48,438 nt of DNA, from the NCBI GenBank assembly GCA_009379915.1, contig WHSV01000017.1, forward strand, positions 1 through 48,438. Reading direction: 5' to 3'. This DNA is from Actinomycetota bacterium (lineage in GTDB: Bacteria; Actinomycetota; CADDZG01; WHSQ01). The notes below the pieces were generated by a model, which saw nothing but the letters and a program-made list of their open reading frames with translations, did not search any database and was not told the DNA's origin. The position numbers and the translations under genes were made by a program. Positions 1 to 25,751 of the stretch are shown piece by piece (the first letter of the stretch is position 1; each line of letters opens with the position of its first letter).

Positions 1-909
1 GGTCACCTCGCTGGCATGGAACTGGTTCTCGCGGAAGCGAAGCTCGTTCAAAGCCTCGGGCGAGAAAGCTCGAAAGCCGCTGGCGGGGTCCGTGATCCGG
101 CTGCGCGCGAGCACCGAGGTGATCCAGGCGAACAGCTTCACGCCCAGCTGACGTCCCCTGATCGGGCTCTCGTAATCACCGAGGATGCGGGATCCATGCA
201 CCACGTCGGCCTCTCCGTCGAGGATCGGCTTGACTAGCTGGGTCAGCTCGAGTGGGTCGTTCTGCCCGTCGGCGTCAAGAGTGGCCACCACCGACGCTCC
301 GCGCAGCAAGGCGATGCGGTAACCGAGGGCCACGGCGGCGCCCTGCCCGCGCCGGAGATCCCGTCGAACGATGAGCGCCCCGTGCTTGCGGGCAACATCC
401 TCGGTCTCGTCGGTCGAGCCGTCGGACACCACGATGCACTCGACCTCGAGACCATGAACCCGGTGGGGAACCAGGGGGAGCACGTCCGGCAGGCTCGTGG
501 CCTCATTGAGCGCGGGGATCACGACCGCGAGCTTGCCCGTGCCCTTGGGGTTGACGTCGGGGCCGAATTCCTCGCCGAACTTCCGGGCGGCCACGCGGTC
601 GGTGAAGTCCCCGAAGCGCCGCTCTAGCTTGTCTGTATTCGCAAAGGCCCTAAGCAGCAGAACGAACACCAGAATGTTGGACAGAACGAGCACACCGATG
701 ACCCGGCGAGCGTCTCCCGGCGGAAAACCCAGCTCTCTCAGGAGGGGGTCGACCGCACTCGGGGCAACCGAGACGAACCCCAGGGCCACCCCGACGCCCG
801 TCATGATCAGGGCGTCCGGCAGGCGCAGGGAGCGCCGGCGGAAACCGCGCGCCGCTAAGATGACCAAGGTCAGGGCGACGGCGAAGCCGAGAAATCGTAG
901 AACGATCAT
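1..909 (-). CDS. DUF2304 / family 2 glycosyltransferase fusion (3' end cut by window edge)
   Basis: The reading frame is open from the ATG at 909 to the window edge, 303 codons without a stop. Residues 1-105 form a DUF2304-like part with two or three hydrophobic segments and a short charged helix. From about residue 120 there is a GT-A fold of the dolichyl-phosphate mannosyltransferase type: VVIPALNEA at the start, VVSDGSTDET for nucleotide binding, and DADGQNDP as the DxD-like metal site. DPM-like enzymes move a sugar from a nucleotide onto a polyprenyl phosphate at the membrane. DUF2304 usually sits in a separate small gene beside such an enzyme, so the single-chain form is notable. It faces away from the epimerase gene at 982; the 72-bp gap must carry both start regions. 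Acceptor and sugar are unknown. Confidence 0.85.
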   Translation of the reverse strand, partial: MIVLRFLGFAVALTLVILAARGFRRRSLRLPDALIMTGVGVALGFVSVAPSAVDPLLRELGFPPGDARRVIGVLVLSNILVFVLLLRAFANTDKLERRFGDFTDRVAARKFGEEFGPDVNPKGTGKLAVVIPALNEATSLPDVLPLVPHRVHGLEVECIVVSDGSTDETEDVARKHGALIVRRDLRRGQGAAVALGYRIALLRGASVVATLDADGQNDPLELTQLVKPILDGEADVVHGSRILGDYESPIRGRQLGVKLFAWITSVLARSRITDPASGFRAFSPEALNELRFRENQFHASEVT

Positions 910-22159: not shown

Positions 22160-24229
<2,070 letters not shown>

Positions 24230-24234
24230 TAAAG

Positions 24235-24262
24235 AAACCGGCCCCCGTGAGGGGGCCGGTTT
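24235..24262. terminator. Strong terminator-like hairpin, probably used from both strands
   Basis: AAACCGGCCCCC, loop GTGA, GGGGGCCGGTTT: a perfect 12-bp stem 5 bases after the ligA stop. The A and T ends of the stem give a T tract in either direction, so it can end ligA and also any minus-strand transcript arriving from 24500. Confidence 0.85.
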
Positions 24263-24500
24263 GGGTGGCTACTCATACGCCCGAACGCACTTCTCTATCG
24301 AGCCCGGTGGACCTGACCGGGGCGCAGGACGCCGGTGAACCGGTTGGGATTCCGCCAGTGGTCCAAACAACTAGCCGATCCCTGGTTACTGCGGGTGCCG
24401 AACCACTAGCCGCCGGCCACCTCACGAGGTCCGTAGGAACTATCACTCACTGTGTCTGGACCACCTCCTTTCTCGTGTACCGCCATACAAGCACAAGGCG
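24263..24500 (-). ncRNA. Candidate structured RNA with a short leader-peptide-like ORF
   Basis: This region of about 240 bp has no long reading frame. Read on the minus strand it holds a near-perfect ribosome site, AAAGGAGGTGGTC (about 24457-24470), then a GTG at 24450 opening a 14-codon ORF ending in TAG (24406-24408). GTGGTCCAGAC pairs with GTTTGGACCAC about 80 bases on, an 11-bp helix with one GU that covers part of the ribosome site. Inside or after it are TGGTT/AACCA, CCGG-TTCA-CCGG, GGCG/CGCC and CCCGGT/ACCGGG stems, and the transcript would end at the hairpin 24235-24262. This looks like a regulated leader or a stand-alone RNA. It is not RNase P, tmRNA, SRP RNA or tRNA as far as I can tell. 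Confidence 0.45.
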
Positions 24501-24613
24501 CGCGCTAGTGGGTCAATTTTCCGGCGGGATTTCGGGGAATTCGTCTGAACGAAACCCCCTCGTGGCGACGGGCCGCTTGTGGCGGCTTGCACTGGATATA
24601 CTGCTCGGAGAAA

Positions 24614-24631
24614 CTTGACCGAGTGGTCAAG
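24614..24631. promoter_or_regulatory. 18-bp perfect palindromic operator before the acyl-CoA dehydrogenase operon
   Basis: CTTGACCGAGTGGTCAAG has 7-bp perfect arms around GAGT. It lies 31 bases before the GTG at 24663 and about 14 bases after TATACT (24595-24600), a plausible -10 box, so a bound repressor would sit on the start of transcription. The form is typical of TetR-family operators controlling fatty-acid or steroid catabolism in Actinomycetota. No TetR gene lies in the window, so the regulator is encoded elsewhere. Confidence 0.7.
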
Positions 24632-24662
24632 TCGGTGAGGGTTCGAGGCGGAGAGGACGGAC

Positions 24663-25751
24663 GTGGGATTCGATCTACAGCCGACCGATGAACAGCAGGC
24701 CCTGAAGCAGACGCTCGCGGAATTCGCCGCCGCCGTCCTGCGGCCCGCCGCCCGTGACGCCGAGGCCGCCGGACGAACCCCCGAAGCCTTGGCCCGCCAG
24801 ATCCAGGAGATCGGAGTCGCCGCGCCCGTCGACGAGGCCTACGGCGGAGGCGGGACGTTCGACGCCGTGACCTACTGCATGGCGGCGGAGGAGCTTGCAT
24901 GGGGCGACCCCGCGATCGCCTATCAGGCGCTCGGCGGAGGACTGGCGGCGGTCGTGATCGGACGGGCCGGCACGGACGAGCAGAAGGCGAGCCACCTTCC
25001 CATCTTCACCGAGCCCGCTCCGGGCAGGTCGTTCGTCGCCGTCGCCGAGAAGGTCGCCGCGGGTGACCTCGAGAGCCTCGATACGACGATCGAAGGAAAC
25101 CTGGTGGCGGGGAGGAAGTACGGAGTGCTCGACGCAGAGGAGGCCCAGGTTGGGATAGTCGTGGGTCGCTCGCAGGACGGGGGCCTCGCCGCGGCGACCG
25201 TGAGGCCCGGCTGCTACGAGATCGTCAAGCCCGAGGACAAGCTGGGGTTGGAGGCGGCGCCGACCTGGGTCGTGGACTTCGACGGCTCGGGCGACGCCCT
25301 TCGGCCGGGCGCGGAGCTGCAACAGGCTCTGCTGCTCGCCAAGCTCATGACCGGTGCGGTCGCCCTCGGTTGTGCGCGCGCGAGCCTCGAGTACGCGGCC
25401 AACTACGCGACCGAGCGCGAGGCGTTCGGGAAGCCGATCGGCGCCTTTCAAGGGATCAGCTTCAAGATCGCCGACATGGCGATCGCCGTCGATGCCGCCC
25501 GCGCGGCTCTCTGGCGCACGGCGTGGCACATCGATCGTGGGACGGCGACGCTCGCCGATGCGGCTGAGGCGAACGGCCAGTGCGTCGCGGCTGCGGTTCT
25601 CTGCGGAGATGACGGCGTGCAGGTGCTCGGGGGACACGGGTTCGTGACGGACCACCCGAGCGAGATGTGGTTCAGGGATGCCGTCACGTTGTCGGTCCTG
25701 GATTCACCGGAGCTCGTGGGCGACGTGATGGTCGCCCGCAGCGTCTTTTAA
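24663..25751 (+). CDS. Acyl-CoA dehydrogenase subunit lacking the usual catalytic glutamate
   Basis: A 362-residue flavin-dependent acyl-CoA dehydrogenase fold: LQPTDEQQALKQTLAEFA, the middle beta domain, then the C-terminal helical domain with ASLEYAANYATEREAFGKPIGAFQGISFKIADM and VQVLGGHGFVTDHPSEMWFRDA. Where active members have YEGT with the catalytic Glu, this chain reads SVLDSPEL. The beta domain is also poor in the usual TEPxxGSD pattern. The next gene encodes a second, complete member, so the pair may form an alpha2beta2 enzyme like the ChsE/FadE heteromers of steroid side-chain oxidation. GTG start with GAGAGGAC upstream. Confidence 0.88.
   Translation: MGFDLQPTDEQQALKQTLAEFAAAVLRPAARDAEAAGRTPEALARQIQEIGVAAPVDEAYGGGGTFDAVTYCMAAEELAWGDPAIAYQALGGGLAAVVIGRAGTDEQKASHLPIFTEPAPGRSFVAVAEKVAAGDLESLDTTIEGNLVAGRKYGVLDAEEAQVGIVVGRSQDGGLAAATVRPGCYEIVKPEDKLGLEAAPTWVVDFDGSGDALRPGAELQQALLLAKLMTGAVALGCARASLEYAANYATEREAFGKPIGAFQGISFKIADMAIAVDAARAALWRTAWHIDRGTATLADAAEANGQCVAAAVLCGDDGVQVLGGHGFVTDHPSEMWFRDAVTLSVLDSPELVGDVMVARSVF

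Follow-up and report, generated by a model that had tools for sequence, protein, structure and literature searches.

What kind of RNA couples an exceptionally strong ribosome site to an open reading frame of only 14 codons? Such an element lies at approximately 24485-24235 on the minus strand of the 48,438-nucleotide stretch analyzed here, contig WHSV01000017.1 of an Actinomycetota bacterium (hereafter the window). Its folding energy was ordinary (z = -0.41), and the evidence therefore had to come from conservation and comparison. On these grounds the structured minus-strand RNA proposed in the first-pass annotation proved real, with conserved homologues and covariation in three helices (P1-P3), and the homologue collection and covariance-model search recommended there revealed an element conserved across two phyla.

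At the Rfam gathering threshold the window element gave no match, and it had been thought to fit no standard RNA family. A sub-threshold Rfam search led to a different assignment, since the element matched the full model of RF02471 (Ms_IGR-5) with 43.2 bits, below the 45-bit gathering cut-off, and relatives scored above it: L002, from the same family as the window, with 49.9 bits, L018 with 68.3 bits, and L017 with 175.9 bits. The Shine-Dalgarno sequence (SD), the ORF frame, the order of P1-P3, and the P2 partner were all shared with mycobacterial and streptomycete members (L017, L036, and others). The window element is a distant and previously unannotated homologue of Ms_IGR-5, homologous along the full model, with the SD, P1, a GAGGTG motif, the stop codon, and P2 in the same order. 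Rfam lists this family, first found in Mycobacterium smegmatis, as an "Actinobacteria sRNA" of the sRNA gene type. Two differences from the Rfam entry were observed: its structure line leaves the 3′ strand of P2 unpaired, whereas our comparison pairs it, and the Rfam material examined mentions no ORF, whereas the window copy has one and the mycobacterial and streptomycete members contain the same mini-ORF.

Transcription and ribosome footprints are supported by published data on relatives. Members of the family are reported to be expressed in Streptomyces lividans (PMC8079986), S. avermitilis (PMC8780764), and M. smegmatis (PMC10454040). For M. abscessus and M. smegmatis, ribosomal reads on the respective MS_IGR-5 homologues were significant (PMC4974804). 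The open-licence literature searched yielded such mentions of expression and footprints, and no paper in it named an ORF or gave a function.

The ribosome site is an extended SD, AGAAAGGAGGTGGTCCAG (24473-24456, minus strand), complementary to the 3′ tail of 16S rRNA; it contains the nearly full-length anti-SD match AAAGGAGGTGGTC (24471-24459) that had been recognized from the letters alone. In this genome the 16S rRNA has the 3′ end GGCUGGAUCACCUCCUUUCU, and AGAAAGGAGGTGGTCC pairs with this tail at 16 contiguous positions, with a predicted energy of -29.9 kcal/mol compared to -10.3 kcal/mol for an ordinary SD. When the 16S tail of the window genome was used throughout, all 16 pairs were kept in 184 of 211 homologues. 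The SD-like 14-mer AAAGGAGGTGGTCC, allowing at most one mismatch, occurred once in 48 kb, against an expectation of 0.02.

Downstream of this site lies the mini-ORF, located at 24450-24406 (minus strand) as previously described, which has a GTG start, 14 codons, and a TAG stop and encodes VSDSSYGPREVAGG. When homologues were read in the frame of the conserved GAG GTG, 145 of 146 non-redundant elements from two phyla showed an open ORF of 10-15 codons running to the conserved stop, with an NTG or ATH start codon 6-14 nt after GGAGG; the stop itself was found at offset 14 or 15 from GAGGTG in all 146 elements of this enlarged two-phylum set. The start codons of the 145 ORFs were TTG (69), ATG (41), GTG (14), CTG (8), and ATH (13), and their stop codons were TAG (124), TGA (14), and TAA (7). 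Among 82 non-redundant elements, an ATG, GTG, or TTG codon 6-12 nt after GGAGG stood in the ORF frame 70 times, in frame +1 once, and never in frame +2. Likewise, NTG starts were found in the ORF frame in 121/131 elements and in the other two frames in 3/131 and 10/131; these NTG-only figures were used as the fair test because admitting ATT, ATC, and ATA raised the other frames to 29-32/131.

In contrast to this constraint on start, length, and stop, the peptide is not conserved: the loop amino acids vary freely between lineages. In 15 elements the interval from GAGGTG to the stop is one base shorter, and the start codon has shifted to match the new frame, so that the peptide ends, for example, in SGGGSS instead of the REVAAR of the usual frame. 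(Loci of this frame-shifted group, with offset 14 rather than 15 and matched start and stop, are L246-L255, L257, L266-L269, and L062.) A stop displaced by a single nucleotide with a co-moving start frame is the best single argument for selection on the ORF, and since the frame follows the stop at the expense of the peptide, the pattern suggests that translation itself, rather than its product, is selected.

Both a trans-acting RNA and a small-protein gene had been offered as options for this locus, and both survive as such. If the RNA were a messenger encoding a functional micropeptide, its structure only controlling translation, this would account for the conservation of the strong SD, start, stop, and frame, and for the similar C-terminus, xEV(A/T)(A/G)x, of the peptides from most elements. 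However, these C-terminal codons overlap P1 and P2, helices that are under constraint as RNA, the loop codons drift freely, and the 15 frame-shifted elements end in SGGGSS-like residues; we thus consider a functional micropeptide unlikely. Ribosome footprints may also arise from untranslated structured RNA. An RNA of this kind that bound 16S rRNA at its anti-SD tail, and so sequestered or marked 30S subunits, would agree with the retention of the 16-nt complement in the great majority of homologues and with the footprints on relatives (PMC4974804), but it would have no need of the start, stop, and frame that all but one of the 146 elements keep, and we give it a rather small probability. Each of these two explanations leaves one central fact unaccounted for, namely peptide drift in the first case and frame conservation in the second.

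Beyond the TAG, the frame of the window ORF continues for about 36 codons, for which stop-codon readthrough into a longer protein had been proposed. The three post-stop frames of the homologues turned out to be similarly open (median 51, 38, and 43 codons), so the continuing frame is not distinguished from the other two, and the post-stop loops differ in length between lineages while the stop position is always kept. Readthrough is accordingly given almost no credence.

The structure obtained by comparison differs from the single-sequence fold. P1 is a hairpin (24477-24423, all positions on the minus strand) whose outer helix, CACGA (24477-24473) with TCGTG (24427-24423), covaries; the inner pairing, GGTCC (24462-24458) with GGACC (24432-24428), is nearly invariant and gave no covariation signal in the homologue set because it hardly varies. 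The SD is placed in the 5′ bulge of P1 and the start codon in its loop. P2 joins GGTGGCCGG (24421-24413) to CCGGTTCACC (24343-24334) and is of the GGTGRCTGC/GCAGTCACC type; it shows compensatory changes and closes a pseudoknot domain (24421-24334) formed by P3, which holds the stop codon, and P4, which crosses P3. P3 pairs GCTAGTGGT (24410-24402, including the stop codon) with ACCACTGGC (24362-24354), spans 24410-24354, comprises 13 pairs in the window, and also shows compensatory changes. P4 pairs GGGAT (24382-24378) with ATCCC (24350-24346), spanning 24382-24346. TAG, the prevailing stop codon of the ORFs, is located in P3, so structure may explain its prevalence; release factor 1 may also play a part.

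Across 31 aligned sequences, P1, P2, and P3 together contained 61 double-changed cells, compared to 19 ± 4 in shuffles that ignore relatedness, and 86% of the cells were paired compared to 33-38% when the structure was slid, a contrast that is partly a product of how the structure was chosen. Mate permutation over 72 non-redundant elements, which ignores phylogeny, gave z values of 8.5 for outer P1, 7.0 for P2, 9.1 for P3, and 4.2 for P4, the support for P4 being weaker than that for P1-P3; eight sequences were left out of the helix statistics by hand. With P1, P2, and P3 enforced, the window sequence reached an energy of -102.4 compared to -109.8 for the unconstrained optimum, in a calculation that leaves out P4 and tertiary pairs.

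Downstream, the hairpin P5, CCCGGTCAGGTCCACCGGG (24321-24303, minus strand), exposes a loop GGTCC (24313-24309) complementary to the GGACC of P1. A GTCC in a downstream hairpin loop was found in 58/72 homologues compared to 6/71 control regions. Where P1 carries GGAT in place of GGAC (L076, L084, L112, L115, L119, and L140), ATCC was found downstream in the hairpin loop or at its edge, and this matched change supports long-range pairing between P1 and the P5 loop, which would compete with inner P1. Homology, the constraint on start, stop, and frame, the lack of a conserved peptide, and helices P1-P3 are established by comparison, whereas P4 and the P5-loop pairing are established more weakly.

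The first-pass annotation had placed an 11-bp long-range helix, GTGGTCCAGAC with GTTTGGACCAC, over part of the ribosome site. This helix is present and prevails when the sequence is folded by itself (mean pair probability 0.61), but it is not the conserved structure. Among 72 non-redundant homologues it scored 6.03 compared to 5.98 ± 0.08 for permuted partners, and the helix was rejected as a conserved element because it did no better than permutation. Its 3′ strand is shared with P3; paired with the post-stop strand as in P3, the same strand scored 7.24 compared to 6.07 ± 0.15 in these homologues. Long versions of the helix (12-13 bp) were present in only 4 of 16 elements of the window's family (L001, L004, L005, and L006), and in the sub-lineage to which the window belongs it may serve as an alternative conformation.

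The RNA appears to be transcribed on its own. A probable promoter (24516-24485, minus strand) consists of an extended -10 element, TGTGCTTGTAT (24495-24485), and TTGACC (24516-24511) further upstream. A simple consensus promoter scan called no promoter at the window's element; TGTG(C/G)TTnnAT is kept at this position in the window's family, whereas other actinobacterial copies have TTGnnn-16..19-TAnnnT at a near-fixed distance upstream (97/135 actinobacterial copies compared to 0/675 upstream control windows). At the 3′ end, sequence inspection and a terminator scan agreed on a terminator (24262-24231, minus strand), a hairpin followed by TTTCTTT; the terminator described earlier for this end is the hairpin at approximately 24262-24235. 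It stands between the RNA and the convergent ligA, an NAD-dependent DNA ligase gene recognized by Pfam that lies outside the RNA (22196-24229, plus strand). This single GC-rich hairpin may terminate both transcripts.

A cis-acting leader or attenuator of a neighboring gene would explain why a short ORF is followed by alternative helices, as in leader-peptide attenuators, and a leader had been among the first interpretations. Against it, the terminator and convergent ligA lie downstream in the window and in the four tested members of its family, and in other lineages the neighbors (longest-ORF gene calls) are serA, a nitrobindin-type gene, PNPOx, an ABC transporter, Hsp70, or a nitroreductase. 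In many of the examined lineages the 3′-side gene points toward the element, and no conserved same-strand downstream gene was found in the window or among these variable neighborhoods. Varying and often convergent neighbors argue for an independent RNA, and a leader function is very improbable.

The element is conserved far more widely than the window by itself could reveal. A DNA search found it in 15/15 other searched genomes of the window's family, as well as in several members of the phylum that are less closely related. Model R1 was built from 31 diverse homologues with the window among them, so the window's R1 score of 103.7 bits is not independent; R1 detects the mycobacterial and streptomycete groups alike, but was built from both. 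At E ≤ 0.001, R1 was positive in 140/396 genomes of the window's phylum, with one copy per positive genome except for one genome with two, and RF02471 was positive in 47/246 genomes at the same threshold. The two samples overlap but differ, and with this restriction the counts suggest that the Rfam model misses many copies. A pattern scan of named genomes recovered the element in Mycobacterium, Nocardioides, Cellulomonas, Salinispora, Rhodococcus, and others, and in two records labelled Zixibacteria and GN15, which scored 55.9 and 57.4 bits, above the Rfam cut-off. In the phylum holding these two records, R1 was positive in 46/132 genomes with one copy each, and the RNA takes a compact form of its own there; given the many positive genomes and this distinct version, contamination seems an unlikely source. 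The single pattern match on a viral contig was not recovered by R1 and was judged to be due to chance. A family common to mycobacteria and streptomycetes is thereby extended to a second phylum.

Known RNAs offer partial parallels. tmRNA also has an ORF of about this length within a pseudoknotted fold, but the window RNA has neither a tRNA-like domain nor resume-codon logic and initiates through an SD and a start codon; ARAGORN found no tRNA or tmRNA in 23900-24800 of the window. Leader-peptide attenuators combine a short ORF with alternative folds, and dual-function sRNAs such as SgrS carry an ORF. In contrast to both, the window RNA shows no regulated downstream gene and no conserved peptide, and its ORF lies within the conserved fold. 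Ms1 and 6S-type RNAs resemble it in that they stand alone, are structured, measure 200-300 nt, and are conserved in Actinobacteria; the main text of one RNA polymerase RIP-seq paper does not name Ms_IGR-5.

We consider it probable that the element is a stand-alone, promoter-driven, ribosome-loading regulatory RNA, some 250 nt long and a homologue of Ms_IGR-5, whose mini-ORF is translated and whose state carries the function. Transcribed from its own promoter, the RNA would capture initiating ribosomes through its complement to the 16S rRNA 3′ tail, making initiation unusually strong. These ribosomes would translate the 10-15 codons and terminate at the stop inside the P3/P4 pseudoknot; since the ORF spans P1, P2, and P3, a translating ribosome must open all three. 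Without a ribosome the RNA could fold, and it would thus switch between a translated, open state and an untranslated, knotted one. We infer that this state rather than the peptide matters, and that it acts either in trans or by way of the RNA's stability or its occupancy by ribosomes. The broader proposal is more tentative, with somewhat less than an even chance of being correct: that of a new class of regulatory RNA, present in two phyla or more, where ribosome transit of a sequence-neutral mini-ORF in a pseudoknot signals the state of translation initiation or acts upon it. The RNA family RF02471 was already known, the window copy being an unannotated sub-threshold homologue; relative to the literature searched, three findings appear to be new: a conserved mini-ORF whose frame is kept independently of the peptide, a revision of the structure that makes it pseudoknotted, and the occurrence of the family in a second phylum. 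The question accordingly moves from which mRNA is targeted to why the RNA must be translated.

In the same genome, the 16S gene that supplies the anti-SD tail (L245, contig C46) is seemingly split by two group I introns (48-334 and 1153-1461), which match Rfam RF00028 at 51 and 71.7 bits; group I introns are rare in bacterial 16S genes.
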